Part shown: positions 18,975 to 47,073 of the stretch, in pieces
How positions within the stretch are numbered: position 1 is the stretch's first letter
How the letters are laid out: the number at the start of each line of letters is the position of its first letter
Origin: Verrucomicrobiota bacterium
Lineage (GTDB): Bacteria; Verrucomicrobiota; Verrucomicrobiia; Opitutales; Opitutaceae
Assembly (NCBI GenBank): GCA_016222805.1
Contig: JACRQG010000007.1
Span: 558,001 to 622,000, forward strand
DNA length: 64,000 nt
Direction of reading: 5' to 3'
The notes under the pieces: model-generated
What the model was told of the DNA's origin: nothing
Database searches by the model: none
What the model saw: the letters and a program-made list of their open reading frames with translations, nothing else
Position numbers and translations under genes: made by a program

Positions 18975-21359
18975 ATGACGAGAACTACCGCGTCCTTTCA
19001 CTTGCTTCGCTTCGCGCTGCGCGTGCTGGCGGCTGGCGGATCGCTGATGCTGGCCGGCACGGGTTGGGGACAGACGCTCGGAGATGAGTTCGAGCCGGAT
19101 GACGGGGCGACGACGGCCAAGCCGATTGCCAATGGGCAGACCCAGACGCGTTCCCTCGTACCGGCGGATGCCGACTGGATTGTGTTCGTGGTGGGGGCGG
19201 CGGGCGCCACCAACGTGCGGATTGAAACCGGGGCGCCGACCGGGGCGGCCCCCAGTGACACCGAGATCTGGCTCTATAACTCCCAGAGCCTGGTGAAGGA
19301 ACTCGCCTACAACGACAATGCGGCGTCAACGACCGGATTCTCCCTCATCACGCTGACGTCCCTTCCGGGCGGGACTTACTACATCAAGGTGGCGGCAAAG
19401 GGCGGAACAACCTTGGTGCCAGCCTATGTGATCCGGGCGACCTGGACGGACCGGAGCGATGCCTTCGAATCCGACAACAGCGCTGCGGCGGCGAAGCTGA
19501 TCACCAACGGGGTGAGCCAGGAACACTCGATCCATGCGACGGACGACGAGGACTGGGTGGCTTTTGTCGTCGGAAGCGGAGGGGCGACGAACCTGCGCAT
19601 CGAAACGTCCGGGCAGGTGGGCGACACGGAAATGTGGCTCTTCGGGCCCGGCAGCGCCACCGCGCAGCTGGGATACAACGACGACGCAGACGGCACCAAG
19701 TTTTCGGTCATCACCCAGGCATCCCTGGCGGCGGGGACGTACTTCATCAAGGTGACCTCCTTCGGCCTGGGCAGCACCCTCAGCGCCTACAACCTGCGCG
19801 CAACGTGGACGGAGCGGGGGGATAGTTTCGAGTCCGACGACACACCGGCGACCGCGAAGACGATTGCCAATGGCGTGACGCAGAACCGCTCGATCCACGT
19901 GGCGACCGACGTGGATTGGGCCACCTTCACCGTGGGGGGCAATGGCGCCACCAATGTGCGGATCGAGACCGCCGGGAACAGCGGCGACACCGAGATGTGG
20001 CTCTTCGGGCCGAACAGTTCGACGGCGCAACTGGACTACAATGACGATGGTGGAACGAGCACGTTTTCCGCGATCACGCGCGCGACCCTTGCCCCCGGGA
20101 CCTACTACGTGAAGGTGGCGGAGTTCGGCGGCAACGCGACGATCAGCGCCTATTCCCTGCGGGTGACATGGACGGACTCCGTCCCGCCGCCTCCGGGAGA
20201 CTCGTATGAGACTGACGACACACCCGAGACGGCGAAAGCGATCGCCAACGGCGCGACCCAGAACCGGTCGATCCACGTGGCCGGCGATGTCGACTGGGCG
20301 ACCTTCACGGTCGGGCCAACCGGGGCGTCCAATGTGCGGATCCAGACCGCCGGCGCGAGTGGTGACACCGAATTGTGGTTGTACGGGCCGGACAGCCCAA
20401 CGCTGCCGGTGGCCTACGATGACGAAAGCGGGGGCGGGGGATTCTCGCTCATCGCCGTCAACGGCCTGGTGGCCGGCAAGTATTACGTCAAGGTGGCGGA
20501 GTTCGGGAACAACAGCGCAATCAACAGTTATACGCTGAGGGCGAGCTGGAGTGACGGTCTGCCTCCGGCGCCGTCCGGCGGGCGTCTCGTCAACCTCTCG
20601 ATCCGCACCAGCGCCGGGAGCGGGGCACAAACCGTGGTGGTGGGATTCGTGCTCTCGGGGGCCGGCACCAAGCAGGTGCTTCTGCGGGGAGTCGGGCCCA
20701 CGTTGGGCAGCCTGGGCGTGGCCGGGGCCCTGGCCGACCCGACGATGCAGCTCTACAGCGGCACGAACGTGTTGGCGGCCAACGACAATTGGGGCACCAG
20801 TGCGGGCGTACGGGAGGCCGCCACTACCGTCGGAGCCTTCGCCTTGCCCACGGGCAGTCTCGACGCCGCCCTGCTTCAGACCCTGGGGGTCGGCGCCTAC
20901 ACCCTCCAGATTGGCGGCGGCAGCGGTGTGACCCTCGTGGAGGCCTACGAGGTACCGTCGACGGCGCCCGTGCGGTTGAGCAATGTGTCCGCCCGGACTC
21001 AGGTCGGACTCGGAGACGATGCCTTGATCGCCGGCTTTGTGATTGCAGGCAACGGCGCTCGCAACGTCCTGATTCGCGCCATCGGACCCGGTTTGTCGCA
21101 GTTTGGCGTCAACGACGTGCTCGCGGATCCCAAGCTCGATCTCTATCGCGGTTCGGCCGTGATTCAGACGAACGACAACTGGGGCGGCACCGCCGCCCTG
21201 ACCGCGGCTTTCGGCCAGGTGGGTGCGTTTGCGCTTCCCACCAATTCGCGCGATGCCGTGCTCCAGACGTCGCTCCAGCCGGGAGCCTACTCGGTGCAGA
21301 TCTCCGGCGTCGGCGGCACCACCGGCGTGGCGATGGTCGAAGTCTACGAGCTGCCTTGA
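18975..21359 (+). CDS. secreted repeat protein: four PPC-like domains and two C-terminal IRA(V/I)GP repeats
   Basis: 794 residues with a signal peptide (to about residue 33, ending AGTGWGQ). Four tandem ~121-126-residue units begin at nt 19083, 19458, 19821 and 20199. Each runs D-x-F/Y-E-x-D-D ... AKxIxNG ... DxDWxxFxVG ... GDTExWLxGP ... AGxYxxKV, the bacterial pre-peptidase C-terminal (PPC)-like pattern. Two further repeats begin about 20580 and 20968 (RLVNLSIRT / RLSNVSART, then GVGPTLGSLGV / AIGPGLSQFGV, then NDNWG). The latter module is frequent at the C-terminus of Opitutales surface proteins and probably has no defined role. There is no catalytic domain, so it is likely a binding or surface protein. 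Repeats 3 and 4 are also very similar at the DNA level, pointing to recent duplication. Confidence 0.8.
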   Translation: MTRTTASFHLLRFALRVLAAGGSLMLAGTGWGQTLGDEFEPDDGATTAKPIANGQTQTRSLVPADADWIVFVVGAAGATNVRIETGAPTGAAPSDTEIWLYNSQSLVKELAYNDNAASTTGFSLITLTSLPGGTYYIKVAAKGGTTLVPAYVIRATWTDRSDAFESDNSAAAAKLITNGVSQEHSIHATDDEDWVAFVVGSGGATNLRIETSGQVGDTEMWLFGPGSATAQLGYNDDADGTKFSVITQASLAAGTYFIKVTSFGLGSTLSAYNLRATWTERGDSFESDDTPATAKTIANGVTQNRSIHVATDVDWATFTVGGNGATNVRIETAGNSGDTEMWLFGPNSSTAQLDYNDDGGTSTFSAITRATLAPGTYYVKVAEFGGNATISAYSLRVTWTDSVPPPPGDSYETDDTPETAKAIANGATQNRSIHVAGDVDWATFTVGPTGASNVRIQTAGASGDTELWLYGPDSPTLPVAYDDESGGGGFSLIAVNGLVAGKYYVKVAEFGNNSAINSYTLRASWSDGLPPAPSGGRLVNLSIRTSAGSGAQTVVVGFVLSGAGTKQVLLRGVGPTLGSLGVAGALADPTMQLYSGTNVLAANDNWGTSAGVREAATTVGAFALPTGSLDAALLQTLGVGAYTLQIGGGSGVTLVEAYEVPSTAPVRLSNVSARTQVGLGDDALIAGFVIAGNGARNVLIRAIGPGLSQFGVNDVLADPKLDLYRGSAVIQTNDNWGGTAALTAAFGQVGAFALPTNSRDAVLQTSLQPGAYSVQISGVGGTTGVAMVEVYELP

Positions 21360-35819: not shown

Positions 35820-37001
35820 TCAGCGCAGTGCGACCGCACCGGTTGCCACGCGATGAAGGAACAGCGCGGCGATCTGCGCCCGGGGGGCGATGGTCGCCGT
35901 CTGGATGAACTCGCGATTGCTGTGCAGTTGATCGCCGATCGGGCCGACGCCATCGAGGTGGGGAAGACCGGCGGCCGCCAGGAGATTGCCGTCCGAGGCT
36001 CCGCCCGTGTGGATCCACGTGAAGGGAGGCACGCCGACATCGGCCGCCGCCTGCTGCCAGGCGGCAAAGACCCGCTCCTCCGCCGGCACGCACTCCTTGG
36101 GTGGTCGGTTGAAGGTGATCTGCAGGTCGAGCTTCAGGCCGTCGCGGGCGTTGAATTCAGCGGTCAGCGCGGCGAGGCGGGCCTCGAGCTTCGCGCGGTC
36201 GCCGACGGCCGTGATGCGGATGTCGATTTCCGACTCCGCATAGTCCGGCACAACGTTGGTGGCCGGCCCGCCACCCCGGATGTTGCCGACGTTGAGCATC
36301 ACGCCGGGGAGTTCGGCCGGAATCCGGCTGGCCGCGAGGAGGAACTCGGCGAGGGCGAGGATGGCGCTGCGCCCGTCGTTGGGGATGCGGGCGGCGTGGG
36401 CGGCGCGCCCGTGCATGCGGGCGACAATCCCGCCGGTCCCCTTGCGCGACTTCACGATGTCGCCCGTGGTCCGCCCGGGTTCAAAGACGAAGCCGAAATG
36501 GTGCCGCTTCGCGGCCGCGAGAAAAAGGTGCGCGCTGCCGTGGGAGCCGACTTCCTCGTCCGGCGTCAGCAGAACCTCCCAGCCCAGCGCGGACGCGCCG
36601 GGTGAAGCCTCGAAGGCTTGGAGTGCGGCCAGCATCACCACGATGCCGCCTTTCATGTCGATGACCCCGGGACCGCGGAGCGTCTGGGCATCGACGCGGG
36701 TGCAACGCTGGAAGGGATCGTTGGCTTCGAAGACGGTGTCGAAGTGGCCGCTGAAGAAGATCTGCGTTGGAGCCTGGGGGCGCATGACGACCCGCAGGGC
36801 GCGCACCGTCCCGGGGCACTCCGGTTCCTCGACGGCGGCGGCCGGAAAGGCGCGGGCAAAGGTCTCGCGCAGGGCGGCACGCATGCGGTCGAGGCCCGCG
36901 TGGTGGCCGGAACCGGAGTTGATGTTGCCCCACGTCTCGAGCAGGTCGACGAGTTCCGCGGTGCGCCCCGGCAGGGCGGCGATGGCAGGTGGCAGGATCA
37001 T
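35820..37001 (-). CDS. M20 family metallopeptidase (carboxypeptidase/dipeptidase-like)
   Basis: 393 residues from the ATG at MILPPAIAALPG, which overlaps the preceding gene's stop by 4 nt. M20 zinc-site motifs: FFSGHFDTVFEAND (His86, Asp88), GVIDMKGG (bridging Asp115), LLTPDEEVGSHGS (Glu149 general base, Glu150 ligand), a downstream FEPGRTTGD (Glu) and a C-terminal DQLHSNREF (His). The dimerisation/lid domain lies in the middle (KGTGGIVARMHGRAAHA). The pattern resembles carboxypeptidase G2 and related glutamate/aspartate-releasing peptidases. No signal peptide, so cytoplasmic. Its tight coupling to the exported S51 peptidase suggests it completes degradation of the imported peptides. Confidence 0.9.
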   Translation of the reverse strand: MILPPAIAALPGRTAELVDLLETWGNINSGSGHHAGLDRMRAALRETFARAFPAAAVEEPECPGTVRALRVVMRPQAPTQIFFSGHFDTVFEANDPFQRCTRVDAQTLRGPGVIDMKGGIVVMLAALQAFEASPGASALGWEVLLTPDEEVGSHGSAHLFLAAAKRHHFGFVFEPGRTTGDIVKSRKGTGGIVARMHGRAAHAARIPNDGRSAILALAEFLLAASRIPAELPGVMLNVGNIRGGGPATNVVPDYAESEIDIRITAVGDRAKLEARLAALTAEFNARDGLKLDLQITFNRPPKECVPAEERVFAAWQQAAADVGVPPFTWIHTGGASDGNLLAAAGLPHLDGVGPIGDQLHSNREFIQTATIAPRAQIAALFLHRVATGAVALR

Positions 37002-38104
37002 GGTGAAGGATTGGCGTGGTCTTCCACGCGGCCGGCGGTGACCTGGACGGTCCGTCGCACGGCCGGTCGGTCGACCTTGAACTGGGCCAGATCGAGATGC
37101 GAGTCGGGACCGAGGCCGAGGACGCGGACGCCGGAGACCGCCAGCGGCTGGCCGGGAACAAGCGCCGGGGGATCCGGGGGAGGGAGCACGAGCCAGGCGA
37201 GACCCTGCTTCTCGGAAAACACCCGGCTGCTCCCACCGGGCTCCACACACAGGGCGGTTCCCTCGTCGAGGCCAAGGCCGGCGAGGCGCGAGGGGCGTTC
37301 GTCGTGCTGGACGCGCGCGAGAAACGTGATCAGCCGGCCGAGGCGCTGCCGGGCCATGAAATGGGAATCCGTCAGGACCCCCACCAGTTCCGGAGCCTGG
37401 AGGAAATCACGACCAACCGTCAGGCGGCGGTCGAAGGGATCCGCGAGCGCCGCAGGGCTCGTGATGGTGTCCGCAAGGGCGGAGAAGTAGTATTGGCCGA
37501 GCACGGCGAGTCCGGCGCTCGTCCCCCCGAGCGGCCGGCCGCGACGGAGATGTTCGTTCAGGGCCGCGGCGATCGGCGTGTCCTTCCAGAGCCGGACGTA
37601 GCGCGCCTGATCCCCTCCGGCGAGGAAGATCCCCTCGGCCCGTCGGATGAGGTCGAGCACCCGGGGATCCGTTGCCGCGGCCGGGTCGTTGAACTTGATG
37701 GTCTCGACGGAATCGGCGCCGCCGATTTCGTCGAAGACATAACTCTGGTAGCCGTTGCCACCGGAGGCGCGGAGAATCACGATATCCCCGCCGCCCGCAC
37801 AGGCGACGAACCACTTCCAGGCGGCGGCCACATCTCCACCCCCTCCGGAAAGGAAGAGCCCGGGCCGCGTTTGGGGCGGGCGGGCGTCGGCGGCATTGCC
37901 GGTCAGCCAGTAGTCGAAGGTTGCATCTTCCGCGGCCGGCGCCGGGCGGGGGACGCCCAGCAGTGCAACGAGCAGGATCACCGCGGCGCGGCCAAGGCCG
38001 CCACCGAGGAGGGAGGCGGCGACACCGGGGAAGCGACGACCGCCTGTCGGCCCGCGGGAGGGGGGCGGCCGGGCGGAGGCGGAGGTCCGGGAGGAGCGCA
38101 ACAT
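36998..38104 (-). CDS. exported cyanophycinase-like S51 peptidase
   Basis: 368 residues from the ATG at 38104. A long basic N-region and hydrophobic core (GRAAVILLVALLGVPRPAPAA, about residues 38-58) form a signal peptide. The S51 fold is clear: LFLSGGGGDVAAAWKWFV, a GGDQARYV segment near residue 163, the nucleophile GGTSAGLAVLG (Ser196), LVGVLTDSHFMARQRLGRL (His248), and GLGLDEGTAL. In cyanophycinases the Ser and His cleave the Asp-Arg polymer cyanophycin into beta-Asp-Arg dipeptides; relatives may cleave other beta-linked or acidic peptides. It lies 4 nt into the M20 gene and divergent from the peptide-binding lipoprotein, with a shared candidate operator between. Confidence 0.88.
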   Translation of the reverse strand: MLRSSRTSASARPPPSRGPTGGRRFPGVAASLLGGGLGRAAVILLVALLGVPRPAPAAEDATFDYWLTGNAADARPPQTRPGLFLSGGGGDVAAAWKWFVACAGGGDIVILRASGGNGYQSYVFDEIGGADSVETIKFNDPAAATDPRVLDLIRRAEGIFLAGGDQARYVRLWKDTPIAAALNEHLRRGRPLGGTSAGLAVLGQYYFSALADTITSPAALADPFDRRLTVGRDFLQAPELVGVLTDSHFMARQRLGRLITFLARVQHDERPSRLAGLGLDEGTALCVEPGGSSRVFSEKQGLAWLVLPPPDPPALVPGQPLAVSGVRVLGLGPDSHLDLAQFKVDRPAVRRTVQVTAGRVEDHANPSP

Positions 38105-38164: not shown

Positions 38165-38180
38165 TACAACTTTGGTGGTA
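38165..38180 (+). promoter_or_regulatory. candidate operator dyad, copy 1 (LuxR-type regulator site)
   Basis: The 16 bases TACAACTTTGGTGGTA, flanked by AT and TGG, match copy 2 (42916-42931, read on the minus strand) at 20 of 21 positions including the flanks. The half-sites are TACAACT and TACCACC, an imperfect dyad. It lies between the starts of the S51 gene (38104) and the peptide-binding gene (38199 or 38226). Confidence 0.65.
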
Positions 38181-38225
38181 TGGTTTTGGGGGTGCAGAAT
38201 GCGCCCTCCGGCGCAGACTGCCGCG

Positions 38226-39878
38226 ATGGGATTTTGGGAAAGCCTTGCGTCGGTGATTTCGGGGGCCGGGTGGCGGTTGGGCGTGACGATCGCGCTCGGG
38301 GCTGCGGGGGCGGCGGGCTGCGGCCGGCGCGAGACCCCGGTGGCGGCCGGCAACCGCGATCAGGTGCTCCTCCGCGGCAATGCCTCGGAACCGGAATCGC
38401 TGGATCCGTACCTGGTGCGCGGTGCGGTGGAGTGGACGATTGTGGGCGGACTGTTCGAGGGTCTGGTGGTGCCGGACCTGGCAACCTTGGAGCCGCGGCC
38501 CGGCGCGGCGGAGCGCTGGGAGATCTCGGCGGACGGGCTGCGGTACGTCTTTCACCTGAGGGCTGGCCTGACCTGGAGCGACGGTTCCCCGCTGACCACG
38601 CGGGACTTTGAGTATGGCGCGCGCCGTCTGCTGGCGCCCCGCCTTGGCTCGGCGCACTCGGAGAACACGCTCGTCTTCGTCCGCGGGGCGCGCGACTACC
38701 AGGCGGGCCGCAACCCGGACTGGCGCTCGGTGGGGGTGCGGGCGTTGGATGAACGGACCCTGGAGATGCAGTTGGCACGGCCCACGCCGTTCTTCCTGTC
38801 GGCACTGTACCTCTTCTTTCCGGTGCCGCAGGCCGTGGTGGAAAAGCACGCGCCGATGGATGAGCGGGTGAACAACTGGATTCGACCGGGGCACCTCGTG
38901 GGCAATGGTCCGTTTCGCCTCAAGGCCTGGAGGCAGGGCCAGGGGGTGGTGCTGGAACACAATCCCCGCTACTGGGACGCGGCGCGGGTGCGCTTGCGGG
39001 AGGTGCATTTCCTGCCGATTGAGAACGCTTCGACGGAGGAGAATGCGTTCCGCACCGGTCAGATTCACCTCACCAGCGCGGTGCCCTTGAGCAAACTCGA
39101 CGTCTACGCCCGTGAACAACCGGAGGCCCTGCGGGTGGTGGATGATCGCGGGGTCTATTTCTACTCGCTCAATGTCGCCCGGCCGCCGCTGCAGGACCGC
39201 CGCGTGCGACAGGCCCTGTCGCTGGCGATCGATCGGGAACGCCTCGCGCGGCAGGTGCTCAAGGGCGGGCGCCAGCCGGCCGGGCATTTTACCCCTCCGG
39301 GCATCGGCGGTTATGTGGCCCGTGCGCACCTCACGTTTGACCCGGCGCAGGCGCGGCGCCGGCTGGCCGAGGTCGGCGGGAGCCTGCCGGCCCTGGAACT
39401 GTTGGTCGATGCGCGCGAACACCACCGGGTGATCGCCGAGACCGTGCAGGAGATGTGGCGCCAGCACCTCGGCCTGACGGTGACCCTGCGGCAGCAGGAG
39501 ACGCAGGTGCTCAACAGCGCCAAGCGCGGCATGGACTTCCAGATGGTGCGCGGTTCCTGGAACGCCACCACCTACCAGGATCCCTACTACTTCCTCGGAG
39601 CCTGGCAGACCGGGGGCCTCTACAACGAAGCCCGGTGGAGTCACGCCGAGTTCGACCGGTGGATCGAGGCGACCTGGACGACCGATCTCGCGGCGCGCGA
39701 GGCGGCATTTCAACGCGCGGAGGCGATCTTCCTCGAGGAACTTCCGGCCATTCCGCTCTTCTTTTCGACGCAGACCTTCCTGATGAGCCCGGCAGTGCAG
39801 GGGTGGCGGCCGGTGCCGTTCGCCGACCGCCGCCTGAAGGAGCTGTGGCTCGCGGCCCCGGCGGGCCGGGGACCCTAG
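38226..39878 (+). CDS. oligopeptide/dipeptide ABC transporter substrate-binding lipoprotein (SBP family 5)
   Basis: About 550 residues from the ATG at MGFWESLASVISGAGW; an ATG at 38199 is an alternative. The signal ends in a lipobox (LGAAGAAGC), so it is a lipoprotein. The SBP_bac_5 domain starts LLRGNASEPESLDPYLVRG and has GLTWSDGSPLTTRDFEYGAR, the family-typical WIRPGHLVGNGPFRLKAWRQG, YFYSLNVARPPLQDRRVRQALSLAIDRE and PAIPLFFSTQTFL. This is the DppA/OppA type, which delivers peptides to an ABC permease. No permease or ATPase genes are present, so partners must be elsewhere. It is divergent from the cyanophycinase-like gene. Confidence 0.88.
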   Translation: MGFWESLASVISGAGWRLGVTIALGAAGAAGCGRRETPVAAGNRDQVLLRGNASEPESLDPYLVRGAVEWTIVGGLFEGLVVPDLATLEPRPGAAERWEISADGLRYVFHLRAGLTWSDGSPLTTRDFEYGARRLLAPRLGSAHSENTLVFVRGARDYQAGRNPDWRSVGVRALDERTLEMQLARPTPFFLSALYLFFPVPQAVVEKHAPMDERVNNWIRPGHLVGNGPFRLKAWRQGQGVVLEHNPRYWDAARVRLREVHFLPIENASTEENAFRTGQIHLTSAVPLSKLDVYAREQPEALRVVDDRGVYFYSLNVARPPLQDRRVRQALSLAIDRERLARQVLKGGRQPAGHFTPPGIGGYVARAHLTFDPAQARRRLAEVGGSLPALELLVDAREHHRVIAETVQEMWRQHLGLTVTLRQQETQVLNSAKRGMDFQMVRGSWNATTYQDPYYFLGAWQTGGLYNEARWSHAEFDRWIEATWTTDLAAREAAFQRAEAIFLEELPAIPLFFSTQTFLMSPAVQGWRPVPFADRRLKELWLAAPAGRGP

Positions 39879-39895
39879 ACCGCGGGTGAGCGGTC
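39878..39895. terminator. hairpin between convergent genes (possible bidirectional terminator)
   Basis: GACCGC and GCGGTC form a perfect 6-bp stem with loop GGGTGA, beginning at the last base of the peptide-binding gene's stop and ending 5 nt before the TonB receptor's stop. There is no T-tract, so termination is uncertain. Confidence 0.35.
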
Positions 39896-39899
39896 CGTG

Positions 39900-42821
39900 T
39901 CAGAGGTTCCAACGCACGCCGACGGTCGCGGTCCAGTCGGCGTATTCGTTGAAGTCGAGGCGCAGGGACTTGTCGCCATTGTAGCCGTGCCGCGGGACGC
40001 CGAGGGCGTTCTGCACCTCCGCGAAGACGGTCCACCGCCGGAGGAAGCGGTAGCTGGCCGTGAGGTCGAGCTCGGTGCTGGGCGACTCGAAGCGGGCGAG
40101 GGCGTAGGGATTGTCGGTCGCCAGCTCAAACACGGTGCGGCTGCGTTGGTGCGCCGAGGCGCGCAGGCGCAGTCCGTGCTTCTCGTAATACAGGCCGGCG
40201 TTCAGGGTGTTCTTCATCTGGTCGAAGAGCGGAATCTTCCGGCCGGTCAGTTGCGGCAGACCGGTGTCGAGCTCCGAATCGGAATAGGTGTAGTTGCACG
40301 TGATGCCGAGGCCATCCCACGGTGCGGGCAGGAAGCGGAGGGGGTAATCGATCGCGAGTTCGACCCCGGTGAGGCGTCCCCCGCGGGCGTTGCGTTCCTG
40401 CGTCACCTGCGTGTTGGGTTCGTCCTCGAAGAGTTCCCGCTGCGTCGAGCGATAGACGTTGTTGCGGTATCGCTTGTGAAAGACCCCAGCCGACACGTAA
40501 CCGACGCTGCCGAGGTAGTAGTCGAAATTCAGGTCGAAGTTGCGCGAGTACACCGGCTTGAGGTCGATGTTCCCCCGGGTGACGACATCGGAGGTCGTGT
40601 TAATCGTGGCGCGTGGATTGAGCTGGTTGAAGGTGGGTCGGGCGAGGGTCTCGGTGTAGGCGGCGCGCCAGACGAGATTCTTCGCCTGGTCGAAACGCAG
40701 ATGGAGACCGGGCATCACATCGGTGTAGCTGCGGCTCGGCGTGATGCGAAGGGGGGTGCCGTTCACCACCGCGTAGGTCTTGAACTTGGTGGTGGTGCGT
40801 TCCGCACGCAGGCCGCCGAGCAGGGTGAGCCGGCCGGAGGAGACCTGTGCCTCGGCGTAGGCCGCCCCGACATCCTCCCAGGCCTGATAGTCGCCGAGCT
40901 GGCTGTTGAGAACGTTGGTCGATGAGGGTACGAGCAGGCCTCGGGTGATGAGCAGTTCGCCGACCTCCCGGACCTTCTGCGGATCGAGAAAGTAGCCGTA
41001 GTTGTAGTGTCCGTCGGCGGTGGCGCCCCGCTTGGCTCCGTAGTCGGCGAGGACCGGGGGAATGTCGGGCTGGCCGACATAGCCGAGCAAGTGCCAGTTG
41101 GTGTTGGCATTGAAGGTGCGCTGGATCTCGTCGCGATCCCGCGACTTCGTGCGGTACTTGGCACCGGCCTTGAACCATCCAGGCCAGCCGGCGACCGTGA
41201 GCGAGTGCCGGCCGTTGACGGCGGCGTTCCATTCACCGTCGGTGTAGTTGCGGGTCCCGCGGACCAGACTGCGATTCTGGTAGGCGCTCGCATTGGCGGG
41301 ATCCAGCCGATCCAGGGTGGTGGTGATGACCGGGAAGCGGGCGTTGCCCGGGGTGATCGTGTAGCCGTTGGTCGAGGTGGCGCGCTGGAACTGCGCCTGC
41401 ACGCCGGTCGCGAGCCCGCCGTCGAACTTGCCGCGGTTGTAACCCAGCAGGTACGTGAGGTCGAAACCCCCGATCCGGGACTCGCCATCGAAGGCGAGCG
41501 TCCGGGTGTCCTGGATCTCGTCGAAATCGCGCACCTCCTTGCGGACGGTGTTGTTCGTCGCGGCGATGCTCGTGTAGGTGTCGCCGGTGATGACGGGCGT
41601 GCCGACCGTGCTGGCGGGAGAGAGGGAGAGCGGGAAGAAGATCTGCTGGCGCTGGCGGCCGCGGTTGGTCTCGCGGCGATTCACGCCGGCGTAGAGGCGC
41701 AGCTTGTGCCCGGCCGCCGGGCGAAACTCCAGCGAGCCATTCGCCCCCCGGTTCGTCATGTCGTCGAAGTAGTGTTGCAGCACGAAGGAATCCATCAGGA
41801 ACGGGGAGGCGGCGGTGCCGGCGCCATTCCAGCCGGTGGTGCTGTTGCGCTGCTTCACGAAGGCGCGGTCGCGATGGTGGGCCGAGACGGAAAGCCCCCA
41901 GCGACGCTCCCAGCCCAGAAGATCCGAGTAGTTCACGGCGAATTCCCGCGTCGGGTTCCGGTGCGGGTAGTTGAAATAGTCCTCGAGCAGTGCGGAGTGT
42001 CCCAGGGCCGCCTTGATCGACGCCACCCGCCCGTCCCGCGAAAAGGCGCTGCGCGTCTTGATGTCGACCGCCCCGCCGATCGAGTCCGCATCCTGGTCCG
42101 GTCGCAGCGCCTTGGTCACCTCAATCTGATCGGCCACATCGGAGGAGACGACGTCGAGCGGGACGCGCCGGGTCAGGCCGTCGAAGTCGGTCACGTTGAT
42201 CCTCATGCCGTTCACCGTGACGGCATTGAAGTCCGCGGTCATGCCCCGGATGGTGACATAGCGACCCTCGCTCCCACCGGTGTCGCGATCCGTCTCCACC
42301 GTGACCCCGGGAAGCCGCTTCACCGCATCGGCGATGTTCTTGTCCGGGAACTGTCCGCTGAAATCCGCCGACACGATGTGCGTGAGGTTCTGCGCCGCCC
42401 GTTGCTGATTGAAGGCGCGGGCCTGCCCGGTGCGCGACGCCTCGACCGTGACGGCCGCGAGGGCGACCGTGTCGGCCCCGAGGGTGAGGGCGAGCCGGGC
42501 CGTTTCCCCCGCGCGCAGCTGCACGGACTGGGTCTTGGGCGGCAACCCGAGGTAGTCGAGGGCGAGCGTGTAGGTGCCGGGCTGGCCGGCCAAAGTGAAC
42601 TCCCCGTTGGCGTCGGTGGCCGTGCGCTGCGAGGGGGCGTCGTGGGTCGATGGAGCAAGGGTGACCGTGACGCCGCGCAGGGCGTTCTGGGTCACGGCAT
42701 CGGTTACGCGGCCGGTCAGCGAGGCCGGGATCTGGGAGAGCAGGGGGGAGGCCATCGCAACCCAGAGGAGCGGAAGCCAAGTGGCGCGAAGCCAGGTACG
42801 AGGAAGGTGACTGGGAGACAT
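39900..42821 (-). CDS. TonB-dependent receptor of the peptidase/LuxR cluster
   Basis: 973 residues from the ATG at MSPSHLPRTWLRATWLPLLW, with signal peptide ending near SPLLSQ. CarboxypepD-reg-like domain: ASLTGRVTDAVTQNALRGVTVTL ... GEFTLAGQPGTYTLAL. A TonB-box-like VTVEASRTG precedes the plug (FNQQRAAQNLTHIVSADFSGQ, NIADAVKRLPGVTVETD, DSIGGAVDIKTRSAF), and the barrel ends in DWTATVGVRWNL. Outer-membrane importer; the barrel loops hold the ligand site, which cannot be read here. The divergent LuxR gene and the shared dyad with the peptide genes point to a peptide-type ligand. Its plug subtype differs from the other three receptors in the window. Confidence 0.92.
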   Translation of the reverse strand: MSPSHLPRTWLRATWLPLLWVAMASPLLSQIPASLTGRVTDAVTQNALRGVTVTLAPSTHDAPSQRTATDANGEFTLAGQPGTYTLALDYLGLPPKTQSVQLRAGETARLALTLGADTVALAAVTVEASRTGQARAFNQQRAAQNLTHIVSADFSGQFPDKNIADAVKRLPGVTVETDRDTGGSEGRYVTIRGMTADFNAVTVNGMRINVTDFDGLTRRVPLDVVSSDVADQIEVTKALRPDQDADSIGGAVDIKTRSAFSRDGRVASIKAALGHSALLEDYFNYPHRNPTREFAVNYSDLLGWERRWGLSVSAHHRDRAFVKQRNSTTGWNGAGTAASPFLMDSFVLQHYFDDMTNRGANGSLEFRPAAGHKLRLYAGVNRRETNRGRQRQQIFFPLSLSPASTVGTPVITGDTYTSIAATNNTVRKEVRDFDEIQDTRTLAFDGESRIGGFDLTYLLGYNRGKFDGGLATGVQAQFQRATSTNGYTITPGNARFPVITTTLDRLDPANASAYQNRSLVRGTRNYTDGEWNAAVNGRHSLTVAGWPGWFKAGAKYRTKSRDRDEIQRTFNANTNWHLLGYVGQPDIPPVLADYGAKRGATADGHYNYGYFLDPQKVREVGELLITRGLLVPSSTNVLNSQLGDYQAWEDVGAAYAEAQVSSGRLTLLGGLRAERTTTKFKTYAVVNGTPLRITPSRSYTDVMPGLHLRFDQAKNLVWRAAYTETLARPTFNQLNPRATINTTSDVVTRGNIDLKPVYSRNFDLNFDYYLGSVGYVSAGVFHKRYRNNVYRSTQRELFEDEPNTQVTQERNARGGRLTGVELAIDYPLRFLPAPWDGLGITCNYTYSDSELDTGLPQLTGRKIPLFDQMKNTLNAGLYYEKHGLRLRASAHQRSRTVFELATDNPYALARFESPSTELDLTASYRFLRRWTVFAEVQNALGVPRHGYNGDKSLRLDFNEYADWTATVGVRWNL

Positions 42822-42915
42822 GAAAAGCGCGGAGCGAAGGTGACGGGAAGTGGCGGCCGGTGGGTCGGCGAGACCGAAGCCAGCAAGGGTAGCAGCCGGT
42901 TTCGGGCCCGGTCCA

Positions 42916-42931
42916 TACCACCAAGGTTGTA
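42916..42931 (-). promoter_or_regulatory. candidate operator dyad, copy 2 (LuxR-type regulator site)
   Basis: On the minus strand the 16 bases read TACAACCTTGGTGGTA, with half-sites TACAACC and TACCACC (6 of 7 symmetric). It sits 94 nt upstream of the TonB receptor start (42821) and 30 nt upstream of the LuxR gene start (42962), so it could control both and give autoregulation. Copy 1 is at 38165-38180. Confidence 0.65.
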
Positions 42932-42961: not shown

Positions 42962-44176
42962 ATGACGCGGTGGGTGCAACAGTCCGCGACCGACGCCGGT
43001 CCCGGCCGCCGAGGCGGCGCGGCGGCGGCTCCGGACGCGCTGCTGGCGGCGCCCGAACTCACGCGCCGGCTGCACGCGCCGCTCGTCGCCTTGCAGGCGG
43101 CGATGGAGGTCGGCCCGCTGTGGCGATCCGTCCGGCGGCTCCTGCGGGCGGCGTTCGCCCCGCACCGGGTGACGCTGTTCCTCGGTCATCTCGGGATGGG
43201 CGAGGCCCGCATGGTCTTCACCGATCCGCCGATTGATCACCCGGAGCAGTGGTACGCCGCCCGCGGACGCGTGAATCCGTTCTCTCCGTACATCGAGGCC
43301 AATCGGGGGCTGCGCTTTTACCGGTTTTGCGACGTGCTGCCTCCCCGCGAGCGGTTTGTGCGCAGCGAATTCTACCGGCGCTTCGCCCGGCCGGAGGGAT
43401 GGGACAAGGGCGTCTCGGCGCTTTATTGGATGCGACGGGAGGTGACGGCGATGTTCAGCCTCTACCGGGCGCCTGCCCAGGCGGATTTCACGGAGGCCGA
43501 TCTCGCGCTCTTGCGGATCCTCTATCCCTTCATCGGGGCGGCCGTCCAGCGCGTGCAGCGGCTGCACACGGAGCGGTTGGCGCGGCGCAGCCTGGAGGAG
43601 TTCAACCGGAATCTCCCGGTTGGCCTGGTCCTCCTGGACTGGGAACTGCGCGTCGAGTTTGCGAACCCGGAAGCCCAGCGCCTGTGTGCGCGGTGGAACT
43701 ACGGTCCGGCGGCTTCGCGCGGCCTGAATCCGCGGGACACGTTTGCCCTCCCGCCGGCGATTAGCGAGGCGGCGCGGCGGTTGCGGACGGCGATCCTGGC
43801 GCGCGATCCCAGAAAACTGCGGCTGCAGCCAGGCGAGGTGGCGCTGGTCGAGGAGGCCGGCGTCGGGCTTCGGTCCCGGGTGTCCGTTCTGAACAATGCC
43901 TCGAGTTCGCTGGCGCGGCCGAAGTTCCTCGTGATCCTGGATGCCCGCGAACCCTGGGCGCCTGGGGGGGAGGAGCCGGCGGAACGGTGGCGGATTCTGC
44001 GGGCGTTGACCCCGCGCGAACGGGAGATCGCTCTTCTGGTCCGGGAGGGACAGAGCAACGCCGAGATCGCCCACGGCCTGAGCAAGAGCGTGCTGACCAT
44101 CAAGACCCAGCTGAATTCGATTTTCCGCAAACTCGGAGTCAAGTCCCGCGCCCGGTTGATGGCGCGCCTCCGTTGA
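42962..44176 (+). CDS. LuxR-type transcriptional regulator
   Basis: 404 residues. The C-terminal LuxR/GerE helix-turn-helix is explicit: LTPREREIALLVREGQSNAE through HGLSKSVLTIKTQLNSIFRKL to GVKSRARLMARLR (residues about 349-404). The N-terminal ~330 residues form a sensory region without a receiver Asp pattern, so it is not a typical two-component partner. It begins with a GAF-like stretch (LWRSVRRLLRAAFAPHRVTLFLG ... YWMRREVTAMFSLYRAP) and a PAS-like middle (LPVGLVLLDWELRVEFANPEAQRL). It is divergent from the TonB receptor, and its own promoter overlaps dyad copy 2. It is the most plausible binder of both dyads. Confidence 0.87.
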   Translation: MTRWVQQSATDAGPGRRGGAAAAPDALLAAPELTRRLHAPLVALQAAMEVGPLWRSVRRLLRAAFAPHRVTLFLGHLGMGEARMVFTDPPIDHPEQWYAARGRVNPFSPYIEANRGLRFYRFCDVLPPRERFVRSEFYRRFARPEGWDKGVSALYWMRREVTAMFSLYRAPAQADFTEADLALLRILYPFIGAAVQRVQRLHTERLARRSLEEFNRNLPVGLVLLDWELRVEFANPEAQRLCARWNYGPAASRGLNPRDTFALPPAISEAARRLRTAILARDPRKLRLQPGEVALVEEAGVGLRSRVSVLNNASSSLARPKFLVILDAREPWAPGGEEPAERWRILRALTPREREIALLVREGQSNAEIAHGLSKSVLTIKTQLNSIFRKLGVKSRARLMARLR

Positions 44177-44198: not shown

Positions 44199-44812
44199 TC
44201 AGGCGCCGGCCAAACTCCGGCGCAGCACGTCCCGCGCCCCGGCGATCTCGGGCGGCAGGGGTTCCGCGGCGATCCACCCGCGGGCCGGGTAGTCGACGAG
44301 GCGGTCGAGTTCCCCGGCGAGGTGGGCGACGTAGTCGATCCCCTGCAGGCCGTAGGTGGCCCATTCCGATTCGAGGCTGAACGGCGGCAGCTGGCGGCAG
44401 ACTTCGAGCCCGGGCTGGAGGAGTTTCAGCGTGAGGCCGACCCTCCGAAGCCGGGAGGGCGAGGCCACGACGATCCCCCGCCGGCTACCCCGCCCGAAGG
44501 CGAGCGCGGGATGCTTTCGAGAATCACCTCCGTCGCGGGGATCTCGGGGCGGGCGCGCCGCAGGGCGTCGTGCCACGCGTCGGCCTCCGGTCGGCCCAGA
44601 TTGCCGGTGCCGGCGCCGATCCCGCCGGTGAAGATCAGCCGGGGAGCGAGCCCGCGGCGGTGCAGTTCGCCGCAAAACACGGGCAGCCGCAGATCAAACA
44701 TGCCGAAGCCGAGGATGGCGTCGGCCGGCGCGGACGGGGTCGGATCGACCGTCGCGAGGTAGTGCAGCGTGCGGCGGGCGGCCGCGACCAGTTCAGGAGT
44801 GGGGGCCGGCAT
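44199..44812 (-). pseudogene. YdcF-like (DUF218) protein with a frameshift and probable internal deletion
   Basis: The first frame starts MPAPTPELVAAARRTLHYL and has ADAILGFGMFDLRLP, RLIFTGGIGAGTGNLGRPEA and EIPATEVILES, all typical of YdcF/DUF218. At about 44505-44515 the homology moves to another frame (HPALAFGRG, IVVASPSRLRRVGLTLKLLQ, YVAHLAGELDRLVDYPARG) ending at 44199. About 20 residues normally lying between ILES and the next conserved strand are absent, so a small deletion with frameshift is inferred; sequencing error is not excluded. Function of intact relatives: exported or cytoplasmic DUF218 proteins, unknown. The start overlaps the SDR gene by 20 nt. Confidence 0.75.
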
Positions 44813-45602
44813 GGACGGAAAACGACATCCGGCGCACGACCTGCGCGAACAGCGCCGGGCAGAAACGCTGCAGGTAGATGCCCGCCACCTCCCAGCCGCC
44901 CACGTAGACCTCGCGGCGGCGGCGGGCCACGCCCTGCAGCAGGGCGGCGGCACATTTCTCCGCGGCGATGCCGGTCTGGTGCGTGGCGTCGGTCCGGCCG
45001 TGCTGTTCGCCGCGGGGACCGAGGGCATTGGCGGAGACGGCGGTCCGGACGTACCCGGGGCACACCAGCGTCACCAGAATCCCATGACGCCACACCTCCG
45101 CCCGCAGGGAATCGAAATAGCCGTGCAGCGCGTGCTTCGCGGCGGCATAGGTGGACCGGCCCGGCGTGCCGACGAAGCCCATCACGCTGCTCACGACCAC
45201 CAGGTGCCCGGCCCGGCGCGCGATCATGCCCGGAAGGACGACCTTGGTGAGGGCGACGGTGCCGAAGTAGTCGACCTCCATCAGGGCGCGCTCGACTTCC
45301 GGCGCGGTCTCGACCGCGAGGGCGCGCTGGCTGACCCCGCCGTTGTTGACGAGGATATCGATCGGCCCCCTCGCCTGGGCCTGGTCGGCGACTGCGGGAA
45401 AGGTGTCGCTGCGCGTGAGATCGAGCGGGAGGACGAGGTGATCGGCCGGCCGGTCGCAGGAGAGGCGCACGCGTTCGAGTTCCGCGGGACGCCGGCTCGA
45501 CAGGATGAGATGGGCCCCTTCGGCGGCAAAGGCGCGGGCCGTCGCCTCGCCGATGCCGGAGGAGGCGCCGGTGATCCAGACTCGCTTGCCCGCGAAGCGC
45601 AT
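44793..45602 (-). CDS. short-chain dehydrogenase/reductase
   Basis: 269 residues from the ATG at MRFAGKRVWITGASSG. Classical SDR motifs: the cofactor site VWITGASSGIGEATA, IDILVNNGGVSQRAL (NNGG, usually NNAG), the catalytic Ser in VVVSSVMGFVGTPG, and the STYAAAKHALHG segment with Tyr and Lys. NAD(P)-dependent oxidoreductase of unknown substrate. The start follows the sulfatase stop by 7 nt, and its end overlaps the YdcF-like start by 20 nt, so the three form an operon. Its C-terminal region (GYFDSLRAEVWRHGILVTLVCPGYVRT) is well conserved. Confidence 0.9.
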   Translation of the reverse strand: MRFAGKRVWITGASSGIGEATARAFAAEGAHLILSSRRPAELERVRLSCDRPADHLVLPLDLTRSDTFPAVADQAQARGPIDILVNNGGVSQRALAVETAPEVERALMEVDYFGTVALTKVVLPGMIARRAGHLVVVSSVMGFVGTPGRSTYAAAKHALHGYFDSLRAEVWRHGILVTLVCPGYVRTAVSANALGPRGEQHGRTDATHQTGIAAEKCAAALLQGVARRRREVYVGGWEVAGIYLQRFCPALFAQVVRRMSFSVHAGPHS

Positions 45603-45609
45603 GCCGGGT

Positions 45610-47073
45610 TCAGCCCTTCTTTTTCCTCCCGCCTTTGGTGATGGCGGCGCTGTACTCGGGTCGGGCCTGAAGTTGCCGGAGGTAGGGGGCGTATTCGGGA
45701 GCCTCGACCCAGTCGCGGGAGCCCGGTTCGCGCGGATCCACGCGGCCCTCGGGGTAGTCCTTGCCCTCGTAGCTGGACTGAACGGAGGCGTTCCAGGCGA
45801 GGAGTGCCTGCTTGAGGCGGGCGGTGAGGGCAGGCTGCGTCTCGGCGAGGTCGGTTTGTTCGCGGGGATCTGCCACCAGATCAAACACCTGGAAGGGTCC
45901 GCGCTCGAGGTTGAGGGCGACGATCTTGTAGCGGTCCTCGATGAGTGCCGCCCGGCGCGTGTGGCGGAAGCCCATGGCGCGACCGCGTTCCTTCAGGTCG
46001 GTGGTGAACAACGGGCGGAGGCTGATCCCGTCGACCGGCTGGAGCAGCGCGGTGGCCGGCAGGCGGGTGATTTCGGCCACGGTGGGAAAAATGTCGAACG
46101 TGCCGCACGGATACGTGGTGACGCGCGGGGCCTTGATCACCGCCGGCCATTCGACGATGCCGGGTACCCGCAGTCCGCCTTCGTAGACGGAGCCCTTGAA
46201 GCCGCGGAATTCCCCCACGGTGCCGGGTTGGATTTCGGGGAGGCCGCCGTTGTCGCTGCAGAACCAGAGCAGCGTGTTCTCCGCCATGCCCAGCCGCCGG
46301 AGGCCGGCCCGCAGGGTGCCGATGCTGCGGTCCATCGCGACGAGTTCACCGTAGTGGTTGGCGGAGTTCCGGGCGAGGGCGCCGAAGTCCTTCATGTCGG
46401 CTTCGGCGGCGATCATCGGCGCATGCGGCGTGCCGAACCAGATGACGGTGAACGTCGGCTGCGCGCCGCCGGCGGCGCGCGCGAGGTGCTTCAGCGCTTC
46501 GTCGACGACGACTTCCGAGGAATCCCCCTTGAACTCCTCCCACTTGCCCTGGCGGCTCAGGATGGGGTCGCGGTCGAAGAAGTTCGTGACGGACAGCCAC
46601 TCGTCGAAGCCGAACGCGCCCGGGCTGTGATCGTCGGCGCCGAGGATCGGAGCCCCTGGTCCGCGGTAGCCGTTGAGGTGCCACTTGCCAAAGTGGGCCG
46701 TGCGGTAGCCCTCCTGGCGCAGTCCCTGGGCGATGGTCTTTTCCTGTCGCCGGAGGGCGAAGCCGTGGTTCTCGACGCCGCAGCGATCGTTGCTCCGACC
46801 GGTCATCACCGTCGCCCGCGTGGGCGAACAGTTGGGCGCGCCGGCGTAGAAACGATCAAACCGCAGGCCGGCGGCTGCCATCGCGTCGAGGTTCGGGGTC
46901 TTCAACACCGGGTGCCGATAATAGCTGGTTTCGCCCCAGCCCATGTCGTCGGCCATCACGAGGACGATGTGCGGGCGGCTGGTGTCGGGAGGGGTGGCTG
47001 CAACCGCCGGGGCGGCGATGGCCGCCGAAAGCGAAAAGAGCAGGGTGAAGGAGGCGGGGAGGCGAGGGAGCAT
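45610..47073 (-). CDS. secreted arylsulfatase-family sulfatase
   Basis: 487 residues with a signal peptide (MLPRLPASFTLLFSLSAAIA). Sulfatase fold: IVLVMADDMGWGETSYY (metal Asp pair), the formylglycine motif NCSPTRATVMTGR (C-S-P-T-R; Cys is converted to formylglycine by an activating enzyme, canonical form C-x-P-S-R), HFGKWHLNGY, VIWFGTPHAPM, LLWFCSDNGGLPE (Asp/Asn metal ligands) and SVYEGGLRVPGIVEWP. It removes sulfate esters from glycans or other metabolites outside the cytoplasm. The substrate cannot be told; sulfated polysaccharide is plausible given the surrounding polymer-use genes. First gene of the SDR/YdcF unit. Confidence 0.92.
   Translation of the reverse strand: MLPRLPASFTLLFSLSAAIAAPAVAATPPDTSRPHIVLVMADDMGWGETSYYRHPVLKTPNLDAMAAAGLRFDRFYAGAPNCSPTRATVMTGRSNDRCGVENHGFALRRQEKTIAQGLRQEGYRTAHFGKWHLNGYRGPGAPILGADDHSPGAFGFDEWLSVTNFFDRDPILSRQGKWEEFKGDSSEVVVDEALKHLARAAGGAQPTFTVIWFGTPHAPMIAAEADMKDFGALARNSANHYGELVAMDRSIGTLRAGLRRLGMAENTLLWFCSDNGGLPEIQPGTVGEFRGFKGSVYEGGLRVPGIVEWPAVIKAPRVTTYPCGTFDIFPTVAEITRLPATALLQPVDGISLRPLFTTDLKERGRAMGFRHTRRAALIEDRYKIVALNLERGPFQVFDLVADPREQTDLAETQPALTARLKQALLAWNASVQSSYEGKDYPEGRVDPREPGSRDWVEAPEYAPYLRQLQARPEYSAAITKGGRKKKG

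Follow-up and report, generated by a model that had tools for sequence, protein, structure and literature searches.

Comparison with described systems

The cyanophycin utilization locus of Ben Hania et al. (cited in PMC10206079) comprises, as summarized there, genes for a cyanophycinase, an isoaspartyl dipeptidase and a transporter. In Citromicrobium sp. JLT1363 a TonB receptor gene adjoins a cyanophycinase gene and was proposed to serve cyanophycin uptake; the passages on this pair name no operator or regulator for it (PMC3400609). The secreted Pseudomonas cyanophycinase CphE is described with a signal peptide, a Ser-His-Glu triad and a pocket of Gln, Asp and three Arg, and carries a hydroxyl residue, Thr, in place of CphB Gln173 (PMC3235067). 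For regulation, the closest described case is Escherichia coli NarL, which at ogt and yeaR-yoaG uses 7-base inverted elements separated by 2 bp; the ogt site lies at -44.5, and that of yeaR immediately precedes the -35 element (PMC7419079).

The window, the whole stretch of 64,000 nucleotides that was analysed, contains a gene cassette that resembles these systems in part. The gene names given in an earlier note on this DNA (S51, peptide-binding, TonB receptor and LuxR) agree with Pfam. The cassette and its two 16-bp sites are as follows.

35820-37250, minus strand: M20 metallopeptidase ORF, true start uncertain
36998-38104, minus strand: S51 peptidase, cyanophycinase-like, with an N-terminal signal sequence judged by eye
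38165-38180, plus strand: operator 1, TACAACTTTGGTGGTA, a candidate site in the S51/SBP5 divergent spacer
38226-39878, plus strand: SBP family 5 oligopeptide-binding protein (SBP5), 550 aa, lipoprotein by eye
39900-42821, minus strand: TonB-dependent receptor, 973 aa, TIGR01782
42916-42931, minus strand: operator 2, TACAACCTTGGTGGTA, a candidate site between the TonB receptor and LuxR genes
42962-44176, plus strand: LuxR-type regulator, 404 aa, GerE HTH at 348-400, proposed binder of both operators

The M20 ORF lies downstream of the S51 ORF and overlaps it. For S51 we preferred the ATG at 38104 over a longer TTG ORF, and SBP5 has an alternative in-frame ATG start at 38199. As in the cyanophycin utilization locus, a cyanophycinase-like S51 is accompanied by a peptidase and transport genes; the window differs in having M20 instead of IaaA or IadA, neither of which was seen among the window genes examined, and in its TonB receptor, SBP5, LuxR and operators. 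Neither the word TonB nor the word LuxR occurs in the text of PMC10206079. The pairing of receptor and cyanophycinase-like gene is that of Citromicrobium, which belongs to another organism group.

We compared the S51 protein with characterized cyanophycinases. It keeps the catalytic Ser, His and Glu and the pocket Gln, Asp and three Arg, the residues listed for CphB and CphE (PMC3235067), and the motifs GGDQ, GxSAG and D(S/T)H, the three Arg and the Glu are present in all 19 orthologues. The position of CphB Gln173 is Ser or Thr across these 19, with Ser in the window. All three PDB matches are cyanophycinases. Against the NCBIfam cyanophycinase model TIGR02069, however, S51 scores 86.3 bits, under the curated cut-off of 126.6, and this, together with a signal sequence assigned by eye, separates it from CphE. 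The nearest solved relatives of M20 are carboxypeptidase G2 and, lower down, poly-aspartate hydrolase.

A richer version of the cassette is found in genome G189 (locus L247, C123:117000-136000), with M20, AstA, AstD, a basic amino acid antiporter, LuxR, receptor, a beta-aspartyl-peptidase-like protein, S51, an acetylornithine-type transaminase, AstB and a second S51 that is cut by the end of the stretch. The Ast genes are those of the arginine succinyltransferase pathway. The likeness to the utilization locus may extend here to beta-aspartyl-peptidase-like and arginine catabolism genes. The beta-aspartyl-peptidase model gives 344.8 bits against a cut-off of 567, and the transaminase scores far below its cut-offs. 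Together, these genes could take cyanophycin to beta-Asp-Arg and onward to the degradation of arginine. Because the S51 residues are kept and G189 adds isoaspartyl-peptidase-like and arginine-catabolism genes, cyanophycin scavenging is the likely job of the cassette, and we favor cyanophycin or a similar isopeptide as its substrate.

The regulator ends in a GerE domain (PF00196, 43.8 bits against a cut-off of 23.5), which recurs in all 41 relatives aligned out of 120 listed matches. NarL has the same type of HTH, and the NarL chains 1je8, 8u3b and 1a04 are among the 24 solved-structure matches of the regulator. NarL responds to phosphorylation and controls many targets, whereas a single site-bearing locus was found for the window LuxR and no receiver was found in the protein: the N-terminal part has no confident Pfam match, and no phosphoryl-receiver domain occurs among the 17 families matched by the 41 members at E up to 0.5. 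Autoind_bind, the autoinducer-binding domain of quorum-sensing LuxR proteins (5 of 41 members, best E 0.044), PAS_4 (6) and GAF_2 (2) matched, all weakly. The consensus heptamer of NarL is TACYYMT, from which the window operator arms differ at inner bases.

Two near-identical sites in the window and its genome

The earlier note had drawn attention to two nearly identical 16-mers on opposite strands in divergent spacers, with a likeness that continued into the flanks. This holds: with their flanks (AT on the 5' side, TGG on the 3' side), operators 1 and 2 share 20 of 21 bases. The imperfect dyad noted within them is also real, and resolves into a conserved 7-2-7 inverted repeat, TACNNNN-N2-NNNNGTA, with 7-base arms and a 2-base center; perfect palindromes occur in relatives, for example TACCACCTTGGTGGTA.

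Scanning the window at up to 3 mismatches to the 16-mer returned 3 matches, a number not attained in any of 100 shuffles (mean 0.11). Besides the two operators there is a match at 19406-19421 with 3 mismatches. In the window's own genome (7,906,178 bases in 51 contigs, 95.6% complete), operators 1 and 2 are the only matches at up to 2 mismatches; reversing the pattern as a control yields none. When the palindromic pattern is loosened and 1 mismatch allowed, one further place appears, which we treat as background since the reversed control matches 9 times per strand.

Sequences of 16 bases are short, and exact matches occur in at least 117 stretches of the genome collection, nearly all of them unrelated, as would suit a chance likeness of two short sequences in one window. 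Against this stand the window shuffles, the occurrence of just 2 sites in the genome and conservation at the same promoters across genera. The comparison with relatives already refutes chance similarity, whose probability we put as vanishingly small.

The motif follows the LuxR orthologue across genomes

We compared the locus with relatives. Within the genus (27 genomes including its own), 12 have a motif match at up to 2 mismatches, although single matches mean little at this level because control patterns match too. Apart from the window's genome, G005, G010, G012 and G025 have pairs of sites at a distance of 4.7-5.9 kb, and G008 has a single strong site. LuxR orthologues with at least 50% identity are found in G000, G005, G010, G012, G014 and G025, with a partial one in G008. 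Genus loci with a close LuxR orthologue have the cassette and sites at both promoters, those of G014 being variants with 1 and 2 mismatches to TACMACCWWGGTGGTA. The exception is G008, where the fragment stops inside LuxR and the receptor with its site is on a different contig.

We then extended the comparison to 252 family genomes, searched with the LuxR protein and with the motif at 1 mismatch. LuxR orthologues (E 6.6e-77 or better, identity 46% or more) are present in 17. The motif occurs in 16 of these 17 and in 21 of the 235 others (Fisher p 2.6e-14), against 3 of 17 and 32 of 235 for the reversed control pattern (Fisher p 0.43); the genomes are related, so these p values are not strict probabilities. 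In genomes that lack a LuxR orthologue, the motif does not exceed the reversed control in frequency. A search of the complete genome and of relatives was the test set by the earlier note, and with two own-genome matches and this distribution its reading was not refuted. The sole genome with a LuxR orthologue and no motif match, G189, has degenerate dyads. Order-wide, among 372 genomes including the family, three further LuxR orthologues were found (G278, G303 and G433); in G433 there was no other cassette match and no good site in the 19 kb examined.

Longer stretches were examined for five of the 21 motif-positive genomes without LuxR (G001, G021, G089, G129 and G220). G001 has a receptor with a type B operator, and a LuxR orthologue was not found in this genome, which is 85% complete; this case counts mildly against the LuxR model. 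The other four have no match to the cassette queries, matches to the window's second receptor being left aside. An S51 orthologue is present in 19 of the 252 genomes, namely all 17 with LuxR and G009 and G017. The latter two keep SDR, S51 and M20; LuxR, receptor and SBP5 are absent from the stretch examined, and no site lies near S51 at up to 4 mismatches. The SDR oxidoreductase gene (44793-45884 in the window) adjoins the cassette in L175, L177, L179 and L249, and in G009 and G017 it neighbors what is left of the cassette, S51 and M20.

With the inner letters left free (TAC-N10-GTA, 3 of 4 inner pairs required), there are 26 matches in the window and 18 match-bearing cassette loci. L248-L251 had been chosen for their motif before this search. 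All 26 are at cassette promoters, while two simulated megabases gave 0 and 1. The pattern has 4 matches in L255-L257, motif-chosen loci without the cassette, and none in L239 or L242. More distant LuxR homologues (about 30-37% identity, L180-L191) lack a dyad of this kind. Some of these homologues lie close to other TonB or SBP5 genes.

The receptor promoter

Every LuxR genome in which the receptor promoter is covered has a TAC-N10-GTA dyad there (16 of 16; the G112 contig ends before it). Thirteen have up to 2 mismatches, and G116, G189 and G097 have 3, 4 and 5, these degenerate sites having been found by inspecting those spacers. In G278 and G303, from other families, the receptor has a dyad with 4 mismatches each. 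There are two gene orders: LuxR is either transcribed away from the receptor gene or placed between it and SBP5. The operator remains at the receptor promoter in both, despite the relocation of LuxR. In G032 and G189, M20 is apart from S51 and heads its own operon, and dyads with 2-4 mismatches (1 at the G032 receptor) lie upstream of M20, receptor and S51. Weak dyads with 2 of 4 inner pairs were also found away from promoters in the same loci, so the argument from these two genomes rests on the position of the dyads.

The promoters share a further element downstream of the site.

42886-42891, minus strand: predicted -10 box of the receptor promoter, TACCCT, starting 25 nt after operator 2

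A TAnnnT sequence starts 23-25 nt after the receptor site in all 17 promoters compared (15 LuxR genomes, G001 and G303), where permutation gave a mean of 0.46 and a maximum of 5 in 20,000. Two receptor promoters added later have TAnnnT (G116) and TGTAAT at that place (G278). If the -10-like box is numbered -12 to -7 in the usual way, the inferred transcription start would put the center of the site at -42.5 to -44.5. Class II activators sit near -41.5 to -44.5 at a fixed distance from the -10 box, an arrangement found in this cassette at the receptor promoter only. NarL acts from a 7-2-7 site at -44.5 at ogt (PMC7419079), and on the basis of this shared position we propose class II activation at the receptor promoter.

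The fixed -10 spacing also speaks against a rival in which the two sites are the inverted ends of a mobile element that contains SBP5 and the receptor. In favor of this rival, the copies are inverted and 4.7 kb apart, and G009 and G017, with SDR beside S51, lack both the intervening block and the sites. But each copy is palindromic by itself, the type A order (below) puts LuxR outside the pair, and the S51-M20 side, also outside it, is kept in relatives. Moreover, G032 and G189 have three dyads, and two gene orders rather than one fixed block are seen. We consider a mobile element highly improbable, and return to the sites as operators.

The divergent S51/SBP5 spacer

The S51/SBP5 spacer has a site with up to 2 mismatches to TACMACCWWGGTGGTA in all 15 genomes that have LuxR and an SBP5 orthologue (67% identity or more). 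On the SBP5 side, TAnnnT within 32 nt of the site occurs in 0 of 15; on the S51 side it is found 25-28 nt from the site in 4 of 15. For this reason we limit the case for class II activation to the receptor promoter. Alignment of the spacers indicated a second conserved box.

38185-38195, plus strand: conserved box TTT-N5-TGC on the SBP5 side of the spacer

Each of its six bases is present in 14 or 15 of the 15 aligned spacers, and the S51 side has a conserved TT...CC stretch. The box is in frame with SBP5 in G000, and we considered a coding or lipobox origin; this was rejected, as the box is out of frame in 8 of 15 genomes, 4 of which have stops between it and the SBP5 match. A sigma-54 promoter was likewise rejected, since the TGC is kept but a -24 GG is poorly conserved, with G in 7 of 15 spacers at +2 and in 12 of 15 at +3. 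The box is possibly part of the SBP5 promoter or the site of a second factor.

The geometry of these spacers allows another reading, in which LuxR represses at the sites and induction is their release. Between operator 1 and the SBP5 ATG there are 45 nt that lack a -10 box of the receptor kind, and operator 2 is just 30 nt from the LuxR ATG. Repressor sites usually overlap the -10 element or the start. In all 17 receptor promoters the site instead precedes the -10-like box, at a position from which NarL activates (PMC7419079). Repression is thus unlikely in our view, and we retain activation as the favored mode.

LuxR subtypes and the receptor operator

The LuxR proteins fall into type A, which includes that of the window, and type B, with 44-56% mutual identity. 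Type A is divergent from the receptor, and type B, where alone, lies between SBP5 and the receptor; G099, G112 and G116 carry both. We compared the recognition helices, some positions of which matter for DNA contact in NarL-type proteins. QLN is present in all 9 type A helices (KTQLN in 8, KKQLN in G010), and KKQ(L/V/A)T in all 8 of type B. The LuxR fragment of G008, which lacks the HTH, was assigned to type B from its N-terminal sequence.

At the receptor promoter, the upstream operator arm, which is the one farther from the receptor gene, reads TACAACC in all 8 type A genomes, compared with TACCTCC (4) or TACTCC (2) in the 6 genomes with type B only. Counted without G116, the arm is found in 7 of 7 type A and 0 of 7 comparison promoters (p 2.9e-4). 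The latter comprise five of type B together with G001 and G032; in G032 it is the other arm that reads TACAACC. The constancy of this distal arm is the part that stands of the earlier note's view of the copies as facing the SBP5 and receptor genes; direction is otherwise only partly meaningful because the site is nearly symmetric. Operators in the S51/SBP5 spacer show no separation by LuxR type. The receptors of G025 and G097 are 73-76% like that of the window, yet have B-type arms, and those of G012, G099, G247, G113 and G116 are 40-46% like it, yet have A-type arms. Within the family, the receptor operator arm follows LuxR subtype rather than receptor subtype.

Outside the family this link between helix and arm fails: G303 has KTQLN with TACTCCC, and G278 has KTQVT with TACAACT. 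The KKQLN helix of the type A protein in G010 also runs against helix/operator matching. G303 and G278, and the receptor and operator without a detected LuxR orthologue in G001, are what might be expected if the sites were operators of another protein, such as a global regulator or a sigma-linked factor, and LuxR a mere neighbor. A global regulator, however, would be expected to bind at more than the 2 places found in the 7.9 Mb genome, motif presence tracks the LuxR orthologue in 252 genomes, the receptor arm follows LuxR subtype within the family, and the operator layout suits a NarL-type HTH. We regard a different binding protein as improbable and the adjacent LuxR as the better candidate.

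Proposed regulation and function

The best explanation overall, which we hold to be likely on this comparative evidence, is that the 16-mers are operators of the adjacent LuxR and that it activates scavenging genes. We infer LuxR binding from co-occurrence, the NarL-like layout, the matching of subtype and operator within the family and the activator-like spacing at the receptor promoter. A dimer of the GerE/NarL-type HTH would bind the 7-2-7 inverted repeat. At the receptor promoter, the bound LuxR would replace the -35 element and recruit RNA polymerase, while the same regulator would act on the divergent S51-M20/SBP5 promoter, and operator 2 may control the luxR gene too. The suggestion in the earlier note of one regulator for all the transcription units is supported by sites at the same promoters in relatives and by their co-occurrence with LuxR.

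In such a system, the secreted cyanophycinase-like S51 would cut the polymer outside the cell, the TonB receptor and SBP5 protein would import peptides, and M20 would complete their breakdown inside. The N-terminal region of the regulator may sense a pathway product such as beta-Asp-Arg or arginine. Should the substrate be correctly assigned, this would link Opitutaceae to cyanobacterial nitrogen stores.

The regulon is new, while the types of regulator and operator are familiar. In a largely open-access literature collection, in which papers on cyanophycin and LuxR were judged by their titles, we found neither a cyanophycin-LuxR regulon nor a verrucomicrobial LuxR regulon with a binding motif. 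The outcome is a candidate regulator, operator and small regulon for Verrucomicrobiota, supported across genera, with a testable inducer class. More tentatively, a one-component LuxR family of Opitutaceae and neighboring families of the order might sense a cyanophycin product and activate a local scavenging regulon through NarL-like 7-2-7 operators, with two paralogous subtypes that diverged in helix and receptor operator. If this is true, the two LuxR subtypes offer a natural system in which to study how specificity changes.

In L238, L239 and L240, paralogues of both LuxR types occur in one cluster, and L239 has a second S51.
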